From the NCBI GenBank assembly GCA_001769275.1, contig MEOQ01000026.1:1-64000 (forward strand): a stretch of 64,000 nt of DNA, given 5' to 3'. How positions within the stretch are numbered: the stretch's first letter is position 1; each line of letters opens with the position of its first letter. The DNA is from Bacteroidetes bacterium GWF2_43_63. Lineage in GTDB: Bacteria > Bacteroidota > Bacteroidia > Bacteroidales > DTU049. Shown piece by piece: positions 451-39,227 of the stretch. Below the pieces are notes generated by a model. It was not told where the DNA came from. It worked only from the letters and a program-made list of their open reading frames with translations, and did no database searches. Position numbers and translations under genes: made by a program.

Positions 451-3400
451 GTTTGTTTCTGCATTGGCTGTCGGTATAGGATGTACTGTAACCAAAACTG
501 TCGCAGTCCCGGTACATCCCGCAGCAGTGCCCGTTACCGTATAGGTAGTAGTCGCAATCGGTGAAACTGAAACCGGAGATCCGGTTAAGCCACCAGGATT
601 CCATGCATATGTTGCTCCCGCAACACTACTTCCACCTGTTAATGATGAAGAAGCACCGTTACAGATAGCCACTGGGCTGGCTGTTGCTGTAATCGTCGGA
701 TTCGGATTGACAACAACCGTCGTTGTCACCGGCGCGCTAGCCACGCCACCAACAGTAATTACTAAGGAATAAACACCGGCATCAACCGTCTGAATATTCG
801 TATGAGACGGGTTCATGGCTGTTGAAGAAAAGCTATGAGGTCCTGTCCAGGCATAAGTGGCTCCGGAAACAGGATTCGCAACCGTTAAGTTCAACGTTTG
901 TCCAACACATAATGGACCGTTGTTTGAAATCGGTGGTGCTACGATCGAACAATCTGTTGTCCCGGTTCCACCTGTTTGGGAGAATTCGATATTGGTGGGT
1001 AAATCTTTGAAATTTGTAATAAGCAACACATAAATCTCTCCAACTAAAGCATTCGGGATGACAGCTGTCTCTGTTGCATTAATCGAATAACTGCAACTAA
1101 TTCCAGAATTACTCATCAAATCCGAAGCACAGGCCGCAGTCAAAGATGTAAATGGTCCCCAGCAAATAAAGTCAACATCATAATCAGATTGAATAAAAAT
1201 GCTCAGGTCTCCATCATTAGCGATCTGCAAATAATACCATGCAGGATTGGGGGTTGTTAACAAGCAGCCCACTGAACCCATATCCGGGACACCAACAGCT
1301 GCCGGATAATTATAAGTAGTACCAGTACAGAAAGGTTCGGAAGCATCGCAGGGTGTTGGAGGAGCACAACTTACTTCGGCTGACCAACCCGTACTTACTC
1401 CGCTACTTGTCGATGTAAAAACAAAAGTCAGGCAACCGTTTGAAGAAGCCACCACTCCCGGAGAAGTTGTACCAGAATAGGTTCCCATAACAGGAGAAGA
1501 TGTATTCGGCCCATCATATATGGTAAGAATGTCGCCGGTTGCCGTAGAAAAAGTTGTGAAATCAACAATCATCTGTTCTCCTGCGTTGGCAGAACAATAA
1601 GTCATTGTGTAATTCTCATTATTTGCATAACTGCCTAACCCGGCACCACTATCATAAAAATAACCGCTGCAGGTTGTAACGGTTCCGTTATTTCCCATAT
1701 TGGTGCCAGGCGGCGGAGCAATACAGGCAATATTTGCAGACCATCCTGCTTCCTGAATCGTTCCGTCAGAGGTAAAGGCAAATGTCAGACAGGATCCTGT
1801 AGAAGTCACTGTGCCAGGAGAGGTAGTTCCACTATAGGTCCCAATAATTGGAGAAGAAGTATTCGGTCCATCATAAATTATCAGGTCATCAATACTTTCA
1901 GTTTCAAAGGCTGTGAAATCCATCTCCATCAAATATCCTGCAGGAGTAGCACAATAAGTCACTACATAATTTGAGTTGGCAGCATAATCACTGTTGCCTC
2001 CATTATCCTGAAATTTGCCAGTACAGGTGCCGCTATATGTTGTATGTGGCACTGTTCCGATGCAAAGATCAAATGTTGATGTCTGGCCAGTTGTAGATGT
2101 CCATGTATAAACCCTGATATAATAGGTCTGACCGATTGTTAGCCCATTAACTGTATTTGAGTTCCCATCGCTGCAAAGAATATTGGTCAATGAAGCACAG
2201 GTGCCGCTGTAAACAGCAAAATTCATGTCGGTTGTTGAGCCGGCAACATTCAATAAATCAATCTCATGAGATGTTTCGGTTGCAACAAATGAAAACCAGA
2301 CATCATCGTCATCTGTACCAAAGCAGGAATTTGTATTTGCCGAAGCAGTGGCTCCAGCTACAGTTCCAGAAGTTGTACTGCCGCAGTTCAAATCAGGATT
2401 AACTGTCACAGGAATTGCTGTAGCACATTCGTCGTTGGTGGCCGGCATGATGGGATATGTACAAATATCGAAAGTTGATGTTTGACCCGTAGTGGCAGTC
2501 CATGTATAGACCCTAACATAGTAAGTCTGGCCAATAGTCAGGCCTGTAAGGGTTCCGGAATTGTTATCACTGCATAAAAGCTCAGTTAGAGAAGCACAAG
2601 TGCCGCTGTAAACAGCAAAATACATGTCGATCGTTGACCCAGCTATATTCGTAAGACTAACAACATGTATAGTACTTTGAGCGACAAAAGAATACCAGAC
2701 ATCATCATTTGGAATGGCTCCGCACGCACTGGCCTGAGCCGATTGTGTCGATTGAAACACCGTTCCGCTGACTGAATTTGTACAACTGCCCGAAGGATTG
2801 ACAGGTAAAAGTACCGCATTTGCACATTCATTATTGGCAGGCGGCGGTGCTACACAACTGATGTTGGCTGCCCATCCGGGTGTACTTGCATTGTTGTTAT
2901 CTGTTGTCCAGACAAAAGTAAGACAAGTGCCCGATGATACTACCGTGCCGGGGCCTGTGGTCTGACTGTAAGTTCCCAATAATGGAGAAGCTGTATTTGG
3001 GCCATCATAAATTTTCAGGTTATCTGCGGCTTCATTGGTCTCAAAAACAGTGAATAAAAACTGCAACGATTGTGCAGTACCAGAGCAAAATGTCATTGTT
3101 CTGGTGCCGTTATTATCTATGTAATTGGTAGTGCTGCCCTGAGGATCGGAGAAAACACCCGAACAGGTTGTTACTGTGGAGCCGGTAACCAAAGGATATT
3201 GCGTAGGCGGTGCAACACAACTAATGGAGGCAATCCAGCCAATGTCTGCAACCGAAGCATCCGATTGCCAGACAAAGGTGAGCTGACCGGTTGGATTGGT
3301 TGCCGTAATTGTTCCCGGACCAGTGGTTCCGCCCCATGTCCCAAGCAACGGAGAAGCAGTCGATGGACCGTCGTATATTTTAAGAAAGTCATATGTGATG

Positions 3401-6650: not shown

Positions 6651-6727
6651 AGAAGAAAGATAACACAGTGGTCAGTAGCCAGCAGGATCGACGCATTAAA
6701 CTCCACAAAAATCTGCAGGAATCGTAG

Positions 6728-6952
6728 GATCACAGAGTTCCACAGAGGTATCACAGAGTATCACAGAGTGACAAAATAGCAAAAGCCGGTTAACAGTGTA
6801 CACAACGAGTTGTGTAAATCAATTACAGCACATCGAATTCTGAAAGCGCTCTTTCAGATTCACTTTGCTGTAATTGATACCGGCTTTTGCCGCGTAAATT
6901 CAACTCCGTGTGACTCCGTGTGTACTCCTTCAAACTCTGTGTAACAAAGGTT
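6728..6952. repeat. Nested inverted-repeat element in intergenic region
   Basis: Core: gcaaaagccggt (6779-6790) pairs with 6879-6890; tcaattacagca (6819-6830) pairs with 6866-6877; ctgaaag (6840-6846) pairs with 6851-6857; a small side hairpin cacaa/ttgtg lies at 6801-6814. The second and first right arms are separated by one base, so the stems could stack into one long branched structure. Outside the core, repeats of cacagagt (about 6730-6769) face actccgtg/actctgtg repeats (about 6902-6945), extending the inverted symmetry. No transposase is present. It could be a miniature mobile or REP-like element or a structured RNA. Confidence 0.7.
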
Positions 6953-7163
6953 ATAAAGGCATGACATTGTACGCTTGAAGTCGGCATCGGATGCATTAAT
7001 CAGAAGTATATACAGGCATTTAAATGCGTTGGCCCTGCAGTAGCCAGTGCCCAATAGCGAGTATATTTGTAACAATTGTAAAGTGTTATGTCTTTAAGTC
7101 GTAACGTCTGTAACGAAAGATTTATCTCACAACTGGCTATTAACAACTGAAAACTAAAATTAT

Positions 7164-7171
7164 TATCTTTG
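7164..7171 (+). promoter_or_regulatory. -7 element of the aspartate aminotransferase gene
   Basis: TATCTTTG matches TAnnTTTG exactly. It overlaps the most upstream possible start (TTG at 7169), so translation must begin further down, most likely at GTG 7196. Confidence 0.6.
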
Positions 7172-7195
7172 CTGCATCATCAAAAAATAATAGTC

Positions 7196-8404
7196 GTGAA
7201 AAATACATTCCTGTCCGAACGCATCACAAAAATGAGTGAGTCAGCCACACTGGCAATGACCAAGAAAAGTCGTGAAATGAAAGCTACCGGCATTGATGTT
7301 ATCAACCTTAGCATCGGCGAGCCCGATTTTTTCGTTCCTGATTTTATTAAAGCTGCCGCCAAAAAAGCAGTCGATGACAACTTCTCATTTTATCCACCAG
7401 TTGCTGGTTACCCGCAACTGCGTCAGGCCATTTCAAACAAACTTAAACGTGACAATAATCTTGAATACGCACCTGAACAAATCGTCGTTTCAACTGGTGC
7501 CAAGCAGGCAATCTGTAACGTTTTTCTGGCTTGTCTCGATCCGGGCGACGAGGTAATCGTGCCTGCACCTTACTGGGTGAGCTATACCGAACTGATTAAA
7601 CTCGCAGGCGGAGTTCCAGTCTATATTCCGACCACCATTGAAGATGATTTCAAAGTCACTCCGGAGCAGATCGAAAAAATGATTACGCCAAAAACAAAAG
7701 CATTCATTTTTTGTGCACCCAACAATCCTTCGGGAATGCTCTACACCCTTGATGAACTCAAGGCGCTGGCCGTTATGTTTGGCAAACATCCAGAAATCCT
7801 CATCATCTCGGATGAAATTTATGAGCTGATCAATTTCGATGGAAAAACATACAGCATTGGTATTTTCCCTGAAGTGAAAGACCGCACTGTGACTATCAAT
7901 GGCCTTTCAAAAGCTTTTGCCATGCCGGGCTGGCGTATTGGCTACAGCGCTGCACCACTCGATATTTCAAAAGCCATCGAAAAAGTGCAGGGACAGGTAA
8001 CTTCCGCAGCCAATGCCATCGCACAGATTGCCGGCGTTACGGCACTTCAGGTCGATCCCGCTCAGTGCGAAGATCTGCAGAAAATGAAACAGGCTTTCCT
8101 CCAACGTCGCGATTACGTTGTAAAACGTCTGGGCGATATTCCTGGCTTCAAACCAAATGTTCCAATGGGCGCATTTTATGTGTTTCCCAATGTTCAGCAA
8201 TTGTACGGAAAATCCGACGGCACCACGGTTGTAAAAGACGACAGCGACCTGTGTATTTACATTCTCAACAAAGCGCATGTCGCACTGGTTCCCGGTTCTG
8301 CTTTCGGTGATCCCAACTGTATACGTTTCAGCTACGCAACCAGTATGGAAAACCTGACCAAAGCATTGGATTGGATTGAAAAAGCTATCAAAGAATTGAA
8401 ATAA
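7196..8404 (+). CDS. aspC: Pyridoxal-phosphate aminotransferase, aspartate aminotransferase type
   Basis: About 402 residues, class I/II fold-type I aminotransferase, expected to move the amino group between aspartate and 2-oxoglutarate in the cytoplasm. The start region SERITKMSESATLAM and INLSIGEPDF are typical of the bacterial Ib aspartate aminotransferase group. PNNPSGMLY is the conserved substrate-site loop. SDEIYELI supplies the PLP-ring Asp, and INGLSKAFAMPGWRIGY holds the Schiff-base Lys and the phosphate-binding Arg. The frame is open upstream to a TTG at 7169, but that lies inside the -7 promoter element, so GTG at 7196 (MKNTFLSER) is preferred; ATG at 7231 is a less likely alternative. 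Substrate range (Asp, prephenate, other) is not settled by sequence. Confidence 0.93.
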   Translation: MKNTFLSERITKMSESATLAMTKKSREMKATGIDVINLSIGEPDFFVPDFIKAAAKKAVDDNFSFYPPVAGYPQLRQAISNKLKRDNNLEYAPEQIVVSTGAKQAICNVFLACLDPGDEVIVPAPYWVSYTELIKLAGGVPVYIPTTIEDDFKVTPEQIEKMITPKTKAFIFCAPNNPSGMLYTLDELKALAVMFGKHPEILIISDEIYELINFDGKTYSIGIFPEVKDRTVTINGLSKAFAMPGWRIGYSAAPLDISKAIEKVQGQVTSAANAIAQIAGVTALQVDPAQCEDLQKMKQAFLQRRDYVVKRLGDIPGFKPNVPMGAFYVFPNVQQLYGKSDGTTVVKDDSDLCIYILNKAHVALVPGSAFGDPNCIRFSYATSMENLTKALDWIEKAIKELK

Positions 8405-8437
8405 ATTCATTTTTATTTTCAATCTTGTTATACCCTG

Positions 8438-8484
8438 AGCGCCGCTGTCATGCTGAGCGGAGTCGAAGCACAAACAGCGGCGCT
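8438..8484 (+). terminator. Hairpin after the aminotransferase gene, REP-like
   Basis: An 11-bp perfect stem, agcgccgctgt (8438-8448) with its complement at 8474-8484, follows the stop by 33 bp. Only a weak T-rich tract follows (tatttcttat). The loop carries catgctgagcggagtcgaag, a phrase typical of dispersed intergenic repeats, so it may be a repeat that serves as terminator. Confidence 0.5.
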
Positions 8485-8499
8485 TATTTCTTATAAAGC

Positions 8500-8578
8500 T
8501 ACTCTCGCTCTCATTCTCACTCTGATTTTCCGCTCTCGCTCTCATATACTCTCTTTCTCGCTCTCACTCTCACACTGT
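8500..8578. repeat. CTC-rich low-complexity tract
   Basis: About 80 bp of polypyrimidine sequence on the plus strand built from ctctcgctctcattctcact-like units, ending just before the NagB/PIG-L gene. Function unknown; the strand asymmetry could favour non-B DNA. Confidence 0.6.
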
Positions 8579-8606
8579 TGTTTCCGGGGGGAATTGACTT
8601 ATTAAA

Positions 8607-10796
8607 ATGTGTCCTATGGCCAAAAGCAAAGTCGAATCCTGGTTTCTGAATACTGTTCAGGACAATAAAAAAATCAGCGCGCACTGCCTGTTGAATCCTG
8701 TGGTTACTGACAATTATGTAACACTCGGACAACTCACAGCATTGCGTTTTCTTGAGTGGGTATGCGATCATCCCGGAGGTGTGATTGCACTTCCGACTGG
8801 AAAAACACCAGAGTTTTTTATCAAATGGACACAGTTCTATCTCGAAAACTGGAGCCGTGAAATCAAAAAAGGCATATTGTCCGAAATTGGCTTCAAACCA
8901 AATGTGAAGCCCGATATGAAATCGCTGGAATTTTTTCAGCTCGATGAATTTTTTCCGATAGATCCGTCGCACGAACGCTCCTTCTCGCATTTCATCAATA
9001 CTTTTTACATCAAAGGTTTTGGCCTCGACCGTCGAAAAGCGCATCTGATCAACACTTGCGACATGCCCGACCGTAGTCGTATGAATCTTTGCGAACTTTT
9101 TTCGGATGGCGAAATTGATCTGAGTCTGCGCACACGTCAGGTGAAATCAGAAAAGGAACTGCACAAAAAAAGAGCCATTCAATACATCGATCAGATGTGT
9201 GCCGAATACGAAGAATCCATCCGAAAAGCAGGCGGTATCGGCTTTTTCCTTGGGGGCATTGGGCCGGATGGTCACATTGCATTCAATATTCGTGGCAGCC
9301 GTCACGACTCGGTCACACGTCTCGATCACATCAATTACGAAACGCAGGCAGCCGCTGCATCCGATCTGGGTGGAATCGAAAATGTACGCCGCAAAGCTGT
9401 TGTTACCATGGGTCTGCAAACCATTACTGCCAATCCCGATTGTACTGCCATTATAATTGCTGCAGGCGCCTCAAAATCAAAAGTAGTGGCCGATGCTATA
9501 TTGCATGAACCTTTACCGGAATTCCCGGCAACCAGCCTTCAGAAATTAAAGAATGCGCGCATGTTCATTACCCGAAGTGCCGCAGCAGGACTGATTGAGG
9601 AGAAATTTCCGGCATCGGCCGTTTCCGATCAGGCCATCAAAAACAAGATCCAGCGCGGACTTGATCTGCCTAAAGGGAAAGTGATCATGCACACCGCACC
9701 GCACCACGACGACATTGAATTGGCCTATTTTCCTGCCATCCATCATCTCGTGCGAAGCGACAAAAATGAAAATCATTTCGTGTATTGCACCAGTGGATTT
9801 ACGGCAGTAACAAACATCTACCTCGCTTCGGTACTCGAAGCAACGGCCGCTTTCCTCAGTAGTAGCGACATTCAGGACAAAGCATCCGAAATAAAATTAT
9901 TCGATATTTCATCCGGGAACTATGATATCACGGGCTATCTAAATGGTATCGCGCAGCAGCAAAAAGAAATTCAACTTTTACATATTGCCTGTCGCATGGT
10001 TCGCAATGTGGCTTCGCACCTGAATTCGCGCAGCTGGGAGAAAATAAAAAAATTCATTGAATCGATTTCAAACATCATTGCATCTCTCGAACCTGGCAGT
10101 AAAGAACCGGATGAAATCCATCTGGCCAAAGGCTGGGTGCGCGAATTCGAGGCCGAACTTGCCTGGGCGCATTTCGGATTGCCTGATTCCTACACGCATC
10201 ACATGCGATTGAAATTTTACTCGGCCGATATTTTTCCGGAGTATCCTAACTACAACGAAGATGTGCTGCCGATTTTCAATCTGATGAAAAAAATAAAACC
10301 CGATGTAATTACACTGGCCATCGATCCCGAAGGAAGTGGACCTGATACACATTATAAATCGCTCATGGCAATTTCGACAGCCATCGACGAATATGTAAAG
10401 AAAACCGGACGCACCGATATCCGCATCTGGGGCTACCGCAACGTGTGGTCGCATTTCAAACTCGGCGAAGTAAATACCATCATTCCTGTTTCATTAAACT
10501 CGCTGGCAGTGTTACACAATATGTTCAACACCTGCTTCCTGAGCCAGCGCTCCGCCTCGTTTCCGAGCTATGAATTCGATGGGACCTTCAGCGAACTCGC
10601 ACAGAAAATATGGGTTCAACAATTCAATGAACTTCGCACAATTCTGGGCGACAACTATTTTTACGAAAGCACCAGTCGTATGTTGAACCGCGCTTACGGA
10701 GCCATTTACATGAGCGATATGAGTTATCAGGAATTCACTGAATATCTGGTGCCACTCCGCAGACTACTTGAGTCGAAATCAATGCTGGAGAAATAG
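8607..10796 (+). CDS. NagB-like / PIG-L deacetylase two-domain fusion (amino-sugar metabolism)
   Basis: 729 residues. The N-terminal half (about 30-345) is a glucosamine-6-phosphate deaminase/isomerase-type domain: ALPTGKTPEF (61-70), LDEF (112-115) and GGIGPDGHIAFN (216-227), the latter the NagB signature. The C-terminal half (about 355-720) begins with TAPHHDDIELAYF (363-375), the metal-binding motif of PIG-L/LmbE N-acetylglucosaminyl deacetylases, with HH in place of the usual HP. Fused proteins of this type are known in Bacteroidota and are annotated as glucosamine-6-phosphate deaminase-like. A combined deacetylase plus deaminase acting on GlcNAc-phosphates is plausible but inferred. Longer than classic NagB (about 260). 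ATG 8607 is used; ATG 8616 is possible. Confidence 0.88.
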   Translation: MCPMAKSKVESWFLNTVQDNKKISAHCLLNPVVTDNYVTLGQLTALRFLEWVCDHPGGVIALPTGKTPEFFIKWTQFYLENWSREIKKGILSEIGFKPNVKPDMKSLEFFQLDEFFPIDPSHERSFSHFINTFYIKGFGLDRRKAHLINTCDMPDRSRMNLCELFSDGEIDLSLRTRQVKSEKELHKKRAIQYIDQMCAEYEESIRKAGGIGFFLGGIGPDGHIAFNIRGSRHDSVTRLDHINYETQAAAASDLGGIENVRRKAVVTMGLQTITANPDCTAIIIAAGASKSKVVADAILHEPLPEFPATSLQKLKNARMFITRSAAAGLIEEKFPASAVSDQAIKNKIQRGLDLPKGKVIMHTAPHHDDIELAYFPAIHHLVRSDKNENHFVYCTSGFTAVTNIYLASVLEATAAFLSSSDIQDKASEIKLFDISSGNYDITGYLNGIAQQQKEIQLLHIACRMVRNVASHLNSRSWEKIKKFIESISNIIASLEPGSKEPDEIHLAKGWVREFEAELAWAHFGLPDSYTHHMRLKFYSADIFPEYPNYNEDVLPIFNLMKKIKPDVITLAIDPEGSGPDTHYKSLMAISTAIDEYVKKTGRTDIRIWGYRNVWSHFKLGEVNTIIPVSLNSLAVLHNMFNTCFLSQRSASFPSYEFDGTFSELAQKIWVQQFNELRTILGDNYFYESTSRMLNRAYGAIYMSDMSYQEFTEYLVPLRRLLESKSMLEK

Positions 10797-31586: not shown

Positions 31587-31659
31587 GGCGTCGTAGCTCA
31601 GTAGGTAGAGCAGCGGACTGAAAATCCGTGTGTCACTGGTTCAATTCCAGTCGATGCCA
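31587..31659 (+). tRNA. tRNA-Phe (anticodon GAA)
   Basis: Cloverleaf: acceptor GGCGTCG pairs with CGATGCC (31652-31658, one G-U pair), D arm GCTC/GAGC, anticodon arm gcgga/tccgt with loop CTGAAAA (anticodon GAA at 31620-31622), and T arm ACTGG/CCAGT with loop TTCAATT. Discriminator base A. The 3' CCA is not encoded (ACA follows). It has its own promoter and terminator, so it is a single-gene unit. Confidence 0.97.
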
Positions 31660-31661
31660 CA

Positions 31662-35928: not shown

Positions 35929-36927
35929 TTATTCTTCAGATTTATTCATCAGATTCCAAATGGCATCCTTCAGCTCAGGAATACCTATACCTGTTGCAGA
36001 TGAAAAGAAAACAGGGTGATGATTTTTCAATTTCGTGGCAATTTTTTTCTTCTGAGCATCATCAATCAAATCGCATTTCGAAACGGAGACAATTTTGTCT
36101 TTCTGCATCAGTTGCGGATTGTAGAGTTTCAGTTCGTTGAGTAGAATTTTGTATTCCTTCAGCGCATCCTCGGAATCGGCCGGTATAAGAAATAATAAAA
36201 TACTATTGCGTTCGATGTGGCGCAGGAAGCGGAGCCCAAGTCCCCTGCCCTCATGAGCCCCTTCAATAATTCCGGGAATATCGGCCATAACGAAAGAACG
36301 GTCGTCGCGATAAGGAACAACCCCCAAATTGGGAACCAGTGTGGTAAATGGATAATCTGCAATTTCAGGTTTGGCTGCAGAGACTACCGAAAGCAAGGTT
36401 GATTTCCCGGCATTGGGAAAACCAACCAGACCGACATCGGCCAGCAGCTTTAGTTCGAAGACGGTCCAACTTTCAAGAAAAGGTTCGCCCGGCTGAGAAA
36501 ACCGCGGAGCCTGCATAGTTGCGGTTTTGAAAAAATCATTTCCTTTACCTCCGCGACCACCCTGGAGCAAAATAACTTCTTCGCCATGTTTGGTAATTTC
36601 GAAGAGTACTTCTTCGGTTTCGGAATCACGTGCAACAGTGCCAAGCGGAACGTCGATGTACACGTCTTTCCCATCGCGGCCTGTCTTGCGGTTTTCGCTT
36701 CCATTCTGGCCGTCTTCGGAATGAACATGTTTGGTATATTTCAAATGGAGCAATGTCCATAACTGCGAATTACCGCGAATAATAATATGACCGCCTCTGC
36801 CGCCGTTGCCACCGTCTGGTCCGCCCAAAGGTGTTACTTTAGAACGATAAAAATGCGCGGAACCAGCTCCACCCTTACCGCTTCGGCAGTAGATTTTCAC
36901 ATAATCGATAAAATTGCTTTCTGCCAT
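35929..36927 (-). CDS. obg: Obg GTPase (CgtA)
   Basis: 332 residues, ribosome-associated GTPase for 50S assembly and stringent control. The Obg glycine-rich N-terminal domain (1-158: [35 protein letters not shown]) is followed by the G domain: G1 GFPNAGKS (169-176), G2 within DYPFTT, G3 DIPG (216-219), G4 SKCD in place of NKxD, G5 SSATG. The C-terminal OCT domain of some Obg proteins is absent, normal in this phylum. Directly downstream of adk, the usual Bacteroidota order. Confidence 0.96.
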
Positions 36928-36938
36928 GGTTTTTTTGT

Positions 36939-37511
36939 TTACATGTGGTTTCGGATGGTTTTGTCGATAGCTGCAGCAACCGAATCGATATGCTGATTAC
37001 CGTCAACCGACACCAAACGTTTTGTTTTGCGATAGTATTCAATAACCGGCTGAGTCTGACTAAAATAAATCATCATGCGGTTATTCATAATTGATTCATT
37101 GTCATCGCTGCGTCCCGACGTTTTTCCACGTTCGAGCACACGATTCATTAATTCTTCTTCCGGAACAACGATTGAGACCACCAGCCCAATTTTCATTTTT
37201 CTCTTATCAAAAATACGGTCTAGCATCTGTGCCTGATACAGCGTTCGCGGAAAGCCGTCGAAAATAATTCCTATCGCGTTGCTGTGTTTAAGCGCATAGC
37301 GATATAATTCTTTGAGTATAATCTGATCGGGCACCAGCATGCCGCGACTGATAAATTTGTTGTAGAGTTCACCCATGGCAGATCCAGAGCTGATTTCGCG
37401 ACGAATCAAGTCGCCGGTTGAAATATGCAAAAAACCGTGATTCTGCACAATTCTGGCAGCCTGAGTACCTTTTCCGCAGCCCGGAGGGCCAAAAATCACC
37501 ATGTTGAACAT
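36939..37511 (-). CDS. adk: Adenylate kinase, single-domain
   Basis: 190 residues, the short (lidless) form. Interconverts ATP plus AMP and two ADP. P-loop GPPGCGKGT (8-16), AMP-site [16 protein letters not shown] (the Asp/Arg pair present), [11 protein letters not shown] with the Arg and Asp residues of the phosphate-transfer site, and [11 protein letters not shown]. All signature residues are intact, so this looks like the housekeeping enzyme. It sits three bases downstream of a gene for two more adenylate-kinase domains, which is not usual. Confidence 0.94.
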
Positions 37512-37514
37512 AAG

Positions 37515-38687
37515 CTACCTCAGATTTTTAAAGGCGCGTTCAATTTCCGATTTCAGTCGCTGGTGCACCTCTTCTGCGTCGCCAGTGGCATCAATCTGCT
37601 TCAGAAGGTTTTTTCCTGAATAATAATCATATAAAGCGGCAGTGCGCTGTTCGTACACTTCAAGTCGATGAATTATTATGTCGAGGCTTCGGTCATATGA
37701 GCGGGCATTTTCCGTCTCCGCGCGCTTTGAAAGTCGTTTGATATTCTGCAGCGTAGGCGATTGAAATGAGTACACTTGTGTTACCTTTCCACCCATTTTT
37801 CGAAGTACACCGTCGAGAATATAGGCCTGAGCAATGGTAAGTGGAAATCCCTTGAAAATATATCCCTTTGCGTCAGGGTGCTTATTTATTTGCTCTTCAA
37901 TCAGTTTGATAGCGATTTCATCAGGAACAATTTCACCACTGTCAACATATTCCTTTGCCATTCGGCCCAGTTCAGTGTTCATTTCAATTTCGTGGCGAAG
38001 CATGGAACCGGTAGAAACATACACCAGATTAAGCTCTTGTGCAATCCGTTTCGCCTGCGTCCCTTTTCCGGATCCAGGAGGGCCAAACACAATGAAATTG
38101 AACCAAATGCTATCGAGCGCTTTCTGAATAATTGTGTCAATTCGTTCAAAAACCAAATCCAATTCACCATTGCCATCCACCGAATGGAACTTCTGCATAC
38201 TCATGTAGAATTCAGCAACAGGTCTGGTTTTATCCTCGTATTCTTTGAGCCGGTAATTAATTACATCCATGCTTTTGTCATCGGAGCGGTTTTCCCGCGA
38301 GGCACGATCTGAAAGTCGCTCCACGAGAACATTTCGCGGAACTTCTAGACAAATCATAGAAGTCAAAGATGAATTCATTCGCAGCATAAGACCTTCGAGA
38401 ATATAGGCCTGAACAACAGTACGCGGAAATCCATCGAACAAATACCCGTTGGATTCAGGATTCATTTTGATTTTATTTTCGATGATCTGGACAATGATGT
38501 CATCGTCAACCAGACCGCCCTTTTCAATCACTTCCTTTGCCTGACGACCGAGCGCTGAATCGTTGGCAATTTCTTCGCGAAGCATATCTCCGGTAGAGAT
38601 ATACGTCAGCTTGTATTTTTCAAGCAGCTTTTTCGATTGGGTTCCTTTACCGCAGCCGGGGGGGCCGAACAAAGCAATATTGATCAT
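37515..38687 (-). CDS. Tandem two-domain adenylate-kinase protein, second domain degenerate
   Basis: 390 residues made of two full adenylate-kinase domains (1-190 and about 195-390). Domain 1 is canonical: P-loop GPPGCGKGT (8-16), STGDMLREEI (31-40), DGFPRT (85-90), SRENRSDD (130-137). Domain 2 keeps P-loop GPPGSGKGT (202-210) and STGSMLRHEI (225-234), but the DGFPRT equivalent reads KGFPLT (279-284), losing the Asp and the AMP-binding Arg, and RSDD reads RSYD (329-332). Domain 2 is therefore probably inactive on AMP, altered in specificity, or regulatory. The gene is three bp from hpt and three bp from the single-domain adk, between hpt and obg where one adk is normally found, so local duplication and fusion is the likely origin. 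Confidence 0.9.
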   Translation of the reverse strand: MINIALFGPPGCGKGTQSKKLLEKYKLTYISTGDMLREEIANDSALGRQAKEVIEKGGLVDDDIIVQIIENKIKMNPESNGYLFDGFPRTVVQAYILEGLMLRMNSSLTSMICLEVPRNVLVERLSDRASRENRSDDKSMDVINYRLKEYEDKTRPVAEFYMSMQKFHSVDGNGELDLVFERIDTIIQKALDSIWFNFIVFGPPGSGKGTQAKRIAQELNLVYVSTGSMLRHEIEMNTELGRMAKEYVDSGEIVPDEIAIKLIEEQINKHPDAKGYIFKGFPLTIAQAYILDGVLRKMGGKVTQVYSFQSPTLQNIKRLSKRAETENARSYDRSLDIIIHRLEVYEQRTAALYDYYSGKNLLKQIDATGDAEEVHQRLKSEIERAFKNLR

Positions 38688-38690
38688 AAC

Positions 38691-39227
38691 TTATTCTGCA
38701 ATTTTGTAAATGTCGCGCAGATTGCGGCCTTTACCATCATAGTCGAGACCAAAACCGATAATAAAATCGTTGGGGATCTCAATGCCGACATAGTGAATAT
38801 AATAGTTGTGTTTGAAAGCCTTTGGCTTGTAGAGCAATGTTGCAATGAATACATCCTTTGCACCTGCCGCTTTGAGTTTGTCTTTGGCCATCAGCATGGT
38901 GAGTCCGGTATCGATAATATCCTCAATAATAACAATGGTGCGGTCTTCCACATCTTCGTTGAGGCTCATGAGTTCACGTACCGAATTTGAACTCGAGGTG
39001 CCTTCATAGCTGGCAAGTCGAACGAACGTAACGTCACAATCACCATTGAAGCGAGTGATCAATTCAGAAGCAAAAACAAATGCGCCATTCAGAACAACAA
39101 TGAACAAAGGATTTTTCCCTTTCAGGTCCTCATTCATTTTTGCAGCCAGTTTTTCGATGGAAGAAATGATCTCTTCATTTTTCAAATACAGATTGAACTG
39201 GCGATTGTGTACGGTAACAGAATTCAT
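38691..39227 (-). CDS. hpt: Hypoxanthine phosphoribosyltransferase
   Basis: 178 residues, purine salvage: hypoxanthine or guanine plus PRPP to IMP or GMP. FIVVLNGAFVFASELITRF near the N-terminus, the flexible loop around LASYEGTSSS, the PRPP motif TIVIIEDIIDTGLTM (about 92-106), and the base-recognition segment KAFKHNYYIHYVGIEIPNDF. Length and motifs are standard. First gene of the hpt, AK-AK, adk, obg, PAP2 run, all within a few bases of each other, linking purine nucleotide balance to Obg. Confidence 0.95.
   Translation of the reverse strand: MNSVTVHNRQFNLYLKNEEIISSIEKLAAKMNEDLKGKNPLFIVVLNGAFVFASELITRFNGDCDVTFVRLASYEGTSSSNSVRELMSLNEDVEDRTIVIIEDIIDTGLTMLMAKDKLKAAGAKDVFIATLLYKPKAFKHNYYIHYVGIEIPNDFIIGFGLDYDGKGRNLRDIYKIAE

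Follow-up and report, generated by a model that had tools for sequence, protein, structure and literature searches.

A two-domain adenylate kinase of Bacteroidales with a canonical first half and an altered, conserved second half

Many Bacteroidales encode an adenylate kinase in which two domains are fused in one chain, and we think it probable that this tandem serves as the housekeeping enzyme in many of them, the first domain (T1) being catalytic and the second (T2) a disabled, conserved partner that stabilises or tunes the first. Textbooks present adenylate kinase as an essential enzyme of one domain, and it serves as a model in the study of protein dynamics; in one bacterial order, a sizeable share of the genomes encode this fusion of an active and an altered half, in some cases with no other PF00406 protein. 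The tandem is a ready-made case for asking how a core reaction is shaped by a pseudoenzyme half and which residues can stand in for Asp84, and it is open to testing, since isolates belonging to Marinifilum, Labilibaculum and Ancylomarina are among its carriers.

The locus and the identity of its domains

The gene was encountered in a stretch of 64,000 nucleotides from Bacteroidetes bacterium GWF2_43_63 (hereafter the window), where the gene order on the minus strand is hpt, a tandem of 390 aa, a single adk of 190 aa and obg. The earlier note on this DNA had placed two genes with three complete adenylate kinase domains between hpt and obg, and open reading frames and PF00406 matches agree on this. 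A profile search of the source genome (3,983,146 bases, 98% complete) found these three PF00406 domains only. Residues are numbered as in E. coli adenylate kinase, for which the sequence used agreed with 1ake. The features are:

35929..36927, minus strand: obg GTPase, downstream neighbour (TIGR02729)
36939..37511, minus strand: single canonical adk, 190 aa (NF001381; groups with singles in the tree)
37515..38687, minus strand: tandem adenylate kinase gene, 390 aa (open reading frame, PF00406, NCBIfam; same architecture in relatives)
37518..38111, minus strand: domain T2 (residues 193-390), altered adenylate kinase domain (model scores and modelled fold)
37692..37703, minus strand: T2 RSYD, Asp158 replaced by Tyr
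37809..37823, minus strand: T2 tandem-specific helix motif YILDG (Tyr94-Ile95 conservation)
37836..37853, minus strand: T2 KGFPLT, Asp84 replaced by Lys and Arg88 by Leu
38055..38084, minus strand: T2 P-loop GPPGSGKGTQ, lysine retained (absent in the second tandem type)
38112..38687, minus strand: domain T1 (residues 1-192), canonical adenylate kinase, predicted catalytic half (model scores and catalytic residues)
38277..38288, minus strand: T1 RSDD, canonical
38391..38405, minus strand: T1 tandem-specific helix motif YILEG (Tyr94-Ile95 conservation)
38418..38435, minus strand: T1 DGFPRT, canonical
38691..39227, minus strand: hpt (hypoxanthine phosphoribosyltransferase), upstream neighbour (TIGR01203)

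Alignment to the E. coli numbering showed the first tandem domain to be intact and the second to carry KGFPLT and RSYD exactly as claimed, and the adjoining gene to be canonical as claimed, with all ten tested catalytic residues present (K13, R36, D84, R88, R119, R123, R156, D158, D159 and R167). T2 of the window keeps K13, R36, R119, R123, R156 and R167, and has Lys84, Leu88 and Tyr158. Asp84 organises Mg-bound water in adenylate kinase; T2 of the window lacks it together with Arg88 and Asp158, catalytic residues by which we would recognise an adenylate kinase. Arg88 positions AMP, Lys13 orients phosphates and Gln92 helps to set AMP specificity (PMC3369945).

Among NCBIfam models, T1 passes NF001381 (213.3 against a cut-off of 187) and TIGR01351 (188.9 against 168), and the single adk passes NF001381 (199.3 against 187). 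T2 falls just below both cut-offs (185.2 against 187 and 163.4 against 168, respectively) and scores above those of NF011105 (163.5 against 162) and NF011100 (161.7 against 154). No tandem-specific model was named among the best 25 of 40 matches to the tandem. The earlier note would have given way to a placement of all domains with UMP/CMP kinases, an identity that we rejected, as the adenylate kinase models outscore the UMP/CMP model TIGR01359 in each of the three domains. T1 (129.2), T2 (118.4) and the single adk (155.4) all lie below its cut-off of 207.6; the whole tandem sums to 242.8 against this model, an effect of having two domains, and less than its adenylate kinase score of 392.9.

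AlphaFold models were obtained for the window tandem (pLDDT 88.6, pTM 0.69) and for one tandem of the second type, type B (pLDDT 88.6, pTM 0.65), with modelling confidence about equal in T2 and T1. Residues 195-385 of the modelled T2 superpose on adenylate kinase 5ycb_B (Z 27.3, rmsd 1.4 over 185), so that T2 is predicted to have the adenylate kinase fold and, with its catalytic motif lost and that fold apparently conserved, to qualify as a pseudoenzyme. All 50 crystal matches listed for the window model fall on T2, and we conclude nothing from them about T1; some of these crystals contain a ligand, a fact to which we attach no importance. The arrangement of T1 relative to T2 is uncertain in the models, since just two chains, from an axoneme structure, aligned with both halves among the 50 Foldseek matches listed, and these superposed poorly.

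Three smaller observations concern the window and its immediate family. The TAG stop of the tandem and the next ATG lie in one frame, one codon apart (a 3-base gap); readthrough between tandem and single adk was considered and rejected, as the gap is 2 bases and out of frame in one relative (L034), and we read the shared frame as chance. Of the six family members with a tandem, four (L034, L035, L036 and L038) have a single adk that reads GFPRN where that of the window reads GFPRT. One tRNA-Phe gene, at 31587-31660, is the sole tRNA found in the window.

Occurrence, gene neighbourhoods and origin of the tandem

PF00406 was searched in 59 genomes, comprising that of the window and those of relatives, and two-domain proteins were present in 16 besides the window's own, five from the same family and eleven from other families of the order. 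The five same-family relatives (G001-G005) are separate assemblies in which tandem, single adk and obg follow in the same order, with hpt in front in four and the hpt side cut by a contig end in the fifth (G005). This excludes a frameshift or assembly join at 37515-38687, which the earlier note had named as a possible undoing of its claim. That two adk genes were joined by a sequencing or assembly artefact is an explanation to which we give almost no credence, as nothing was found in its favour and many separate assemblies contain the tandem, some of them from isolates (Marinifilum, Labilibaculum, Ancylomarina and Balneicella). The tandem is not universal in the family: six further genomes, all of another genus (G006-G011), showed none in the PF00406 search, which matched a single adk in four of them and nothing in two. 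Across the 59 genomes, four had no PF00406 match (G008 and G010 from the window's family, G056 and G057), with completeness of 99% for G010 and 94% for G057; either contig gaps or a replaced enzyme would account for these.

A profile built from 17 tandems (A1) was then searched in 148 genomes of the order that were at least 90% complete. Among the matches listed, full or nearly full-length tandems occur in 38 genomes (the window's own included) from 30 family codes, which bears out the proposed check for the two-domain architecture elsewhere; the 45 tandem matches include two in each of seven genomes. In other orders of the phylum, A1 found a tandem in one of 147 sampled genomes (G282, from another class). 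This is a type B tandem (L135), accompanied elsewhere in the genome by a single adk of 217 aa, and looks like a transfer. Named genomes were also scanned with an alignment of T2 (A2), yielding 583 pattern matches, 545 of them encoding relatives; all 80 loci kept (the best 80 of 545) encode two-domain proteins. Carriers among these best 80 include isolates of Marinifilum, Labilibaculum, Ancylomarina, Balneicella and Perlabentimonas, as well as MAGs labelled Lentimicrobium and Draconibacterium, and several of the many tandem-bearing Bacteroidales are marine. Matches to plasmids (216 records) and phages (19 records) were all below 60% identity, and the places listed (eight for each) were of single-domain length.

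In a first sample of 30 loci from the PF00406 search, taken with 1.5-kb flanks, hpt is a neighbour of adk in 26, and 14 have hpt and obg together, which makes a single adk the usual occupant of this slot. The best 80 of 545 scan loci comprise 18 with the order hpt-tandem-obg, nine with hpt-tandem, six with hpt-tandem-single-obg, two with tandem-single-obg and 45 with neither hpt nor obg; the three-domain arrangement of the window is one layout among several. Tandems set between hpt and obg have as their commonest further neighbours an AIR carboxylase gene (41 loci) and a PAP2 gene (37 loci), both identified by scanning the window's members only. Twelve Marinifilum and Labilibaculum loci have one gene family directly downstream of the tandem, whose single scanned member (L166, locus 6679-9557) has FIST domains and is followed there by a histidine kinase gene. 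Among dispersed tandems, 19 loci share a gene whose single scanned member (L163) resembles ketoacyl synthase III. The neighbours of dispersed tandems are lineage-bound, and we draw nothing on function from any of the neighbours named here.

Two other architectures were seen at such loci. In seven (L055, at 2007-3119; L052, at 2122-3240; L100, L101, L103, L105 and L110), hpt and adk are fused in one open reading frame of 377-399 aa, a separate fusion of neighbours. At L056 (G046), residues 202-386 of a 511-aa open reading frame upstream of obg form one adenylate kinase domain, with more sequence on either side.

As the earlier note had proposed, a tree of the domains was built: a maximum-likelihood tree of 158 domains (53 T1, 53 T2 and a thinned set of 52 singles including E. 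coli), made by a quick method with SH-aLRT values and no bootstrap. Three groups resulted, one each for T1, T2 and the singles, with values of 85 for T1, 98 for T2 and 96 for T1 and T2 together against singles; removal of 16 trait columns gave 89, 96 and 82. Since T1 and T2 form clades that jointly exclude the singles, the tree shows one internal duplication to be the source of the tandem, predating the dispersal of the tandem among these families, be it vertical or horizontal. The single adk of the window groups with the five other singles that lie beside tandems of its family (99), and not with T1 or T2. The description of the locus as triplicated therefore fails: local triplication was rejected because singles are separate from T1 and T2 in both trees, and T1 and T2 go back to one older duplication.

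Conservation and the role of the second domain

Residues were compared in 53 tandems found by PF00406 or by profile A1, free of any filter on T2 motifs, and in 115 distinct tandems made up of these and the scan loci (99 of the larger type, type A, and 16 of type B). T1 is canonical throughout, with K13, R36, D84, R88, D158, D159 and RxDD in 115 of 115, and position 84 is Asp in 53/53 T1 and 77/77 singles. We infer from these intact residues, and from the genomes with no other PF00406 protein, that T1 catalyses ATP + AMP = 2 ADP.

Such genomes number 14 (G016, G031, G037, G042, G051, G059, G060, G087, G092, G119, G128, G155, G156 and G159); they are 93-100% complete, and in each the PF00406 matches are confined to a single type A tandem, one per half. 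Contamination is 6% in G159, and T2 of G092 keeps Asp84. The 38 tandem-bearing genomes divide into 14 with type A alone, ten with type A and a single adk, six with types A and B (including G071, where two partial matches on separate contigs were taken for one split tandem), two with all three, five with a single adk and type B, and one with type B alone. As adk is essential in E. coli and these 14 genomes have no other PF00406 protein, the tandem probably provides their adenylate kinase among proteins of that family, T1 being the half whose residues fit the task.

In the 53 tandems, T2 has Lys at position 84 in 49, Asn in two and Asp in two, and at position 158 Tyr in 52 and Cys in one; K13 is lost in 20, R36 in 17, R88 in 11 and R156 in 19. 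Leu88 occurs in six of the 53, all from the window's family, Arg being usual elsewhere, and Arg88 is absent from 24 of 115 T2. R119, R123, R167 and Q92 are retained in 115/115, and Lys84 is found in 111/115, a figure biased by the presence of the Lys motif in one of the two scan patterns. Some residues are common to both halves and rare or absent in singles: Tyr94-Ile95 (53/53 T1, 53/53 T2, 0/77 singles), Gly98 (51/53, 52/53 and 3/77) and Tyr28 (53/53, 46/53 and 1/77).

Non-synonymous change is low. Over ten pairs of five family genomes, G004 being left out, pN was 0.071-0.259 for T2, 0.052-0.186 for T1 and 0.031-0.264 for the single adk, with T2 pS of 0.70-0.84 in the same pairs; synonymous sites were mostly saturated, leaving dN/dS undefined in 20 of 30 cases and the ratios rough. 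T1, T2 and the single adk are all under constraint, which is about equally strong in T2 and in the single. The words 'partly degenerate', if they meant decay, do not survive this low rate and the recurrence of the same two replacements over 30 family codes. It is in our judgement very improbable that T2 is a passenger in slow decay after the duplication: it has evolved somewhat faster than T1 (mean pairwise identity in type A of 0.56 vs 0.66) and has lost several catalytic residues, yet the same replacements stand at both positions in nearly all of the 53, pN is low, and T1 accompanies T2 in 80/80 of the kept loci (best 80 of 545).

The 16 type B loci form one T2 clade (99). Their T2 has Arg (once Met) for the P-loop lysine and a replaced Arg36 (once by Lys), each in 16/16, and keeps Lys84 and Tyr158 in 16/16; position 159 is also Tyr in G088. 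By comparison, type A T2 keeps K13 in 95 of 99. Neither hpt nor obg was found near any of the 16 type B tandems within the 3.2-5.3 kb of fetched sequence, and in 15 of the 16 genomes a canonical single adk or a further tandem is present as well, the exception (G157) being a fragmented assembly. On the tree made free of trait columns, loss of the P-loop lysine needs two changes, position 84 two and position 158 one, and every T2 lacking the P-loop lysine has Lys84 (53 tandems). The two T2 with Asp84 (G092, G093) lie apart from the remaining 51, which group together with weak support (85); in these two, position 88 is Ser/Ile and position 158 Tyr/Cys, a hint that position 158 changed before position 84.

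A T2 that is a second active nucleotide kinase of altered chemistry, with Lys84 in place of the Mg-organising aspartate, could draw on the prevalence of Lys84, on a P-loop lysine in 33/53, on Gln92 in 115/115 and on the two adenylate kinase models that the window T2 passes. We rate it as quite improbable nonetheless, because Arg88 is gone from all six tandems of the window's family and from others besides, type B has lost R36, R156 and K13, and a Lys form would be a poor catalyst given the role of Asp84 in binding Mg-bound water. Residual catalysis by T2 is possible, since it passes those two models. The earlier note had also proposed a new nucleotide specificity, which is not supported, given the invariant Gln92 and the lower scores of the UMP/CMP model; its suggestion of a pseudo-enzyme or regulatory half is still the best reading, T2 being altered yet conserved.

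A purely structural T2, which would bind no ligand and serve T1 as an inbuilt dimer partner for stability or localisation, is unlikely, though worth serious consideration. Type B points that way, having kept Lys84, Tyr158 and a confidently modelled fold in spite of losing the P-loop lysine and Arg36, as does the Tyr94-Ile95 pair common to both halves; type A does not, as its P-loop lysine is nearly always kept and R119, R123, R167 and Q92 all are, a larger set of residues than a scaffold would call for. The need to fold or to stay soluble could by itself explain why T2 is conserved.

We accordingly prefer a disabled, conserved partner of T1. T2 arose by internal duplication from the same ancestor, as the tree shows, and would have been kept folded and catalytically disabled. 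With R119, R123, R167 and the adenine-reading Gln92 retained, and a lysine placed where Mg would be held, it would bind an adenine nucleotide or polyphosphate with neither Mg nor turnover. It may contact T1 directly, perhaps through the common YIL-x-G helix, and by that contact stabilise T1 or tune it to the adenylate ratio. Judging from sequence, we lean towards an effect of this kind, through direct contact, whether regulation or stabilisation. A more specific version strikes us as improbable: T2 as a locked, Mg-independent adenylate sensor, with Lys84 taking over phosphate binding and occupancy setting T1 activity. That role of Lys84 would have let the P-loop lysine be lost later, on two lineages that both already had Lys84, and one protein would then read and correct the energy charge.

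Comparison with known systems

We found no description of a bacterial tandem adenylate kinase with a disabled half in the open-licence literature, which is weak evidence of novelty. The nearest relatives are the bacterial short-LID adenylate kinases (PF00406, NF001381/TIGR01351), which T1 and the single adk resemble in length, residues and gene neighbourhood; the singles here have one domain, and the tandem adds a fused, altered second copy. The top fold match among those listed, 9fqr_G8, is a chain of 475 residues from a bovine sperm axoneme structure, presumably AK8 to judge from its length and source, and the whole tandem model superposes on it poorly (TMq 0.41, rmsd 16.5). WNK kinases, in which the catalytic lysine is relocated, offer an analogy only: type B T2 likewise lacks the P-loop lysine and has a lysine elsewhere in the site. 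Eukaryotic AK5 and AK8 likewise have two adenylate kinase domains per chain; AK8, like AK5, is reported to have two complete, active domains (PMC10056885), whereas T2 of the window tandem lacks Asp84, Arg88 and Asp158. The order of the halves recalls the D1/D2 pair of receptor tyrosine phosphatases, where an active domain is followed by an inactive copy (PMC7320164); the fold is unrelated, and the likeness is one of domain order alone.
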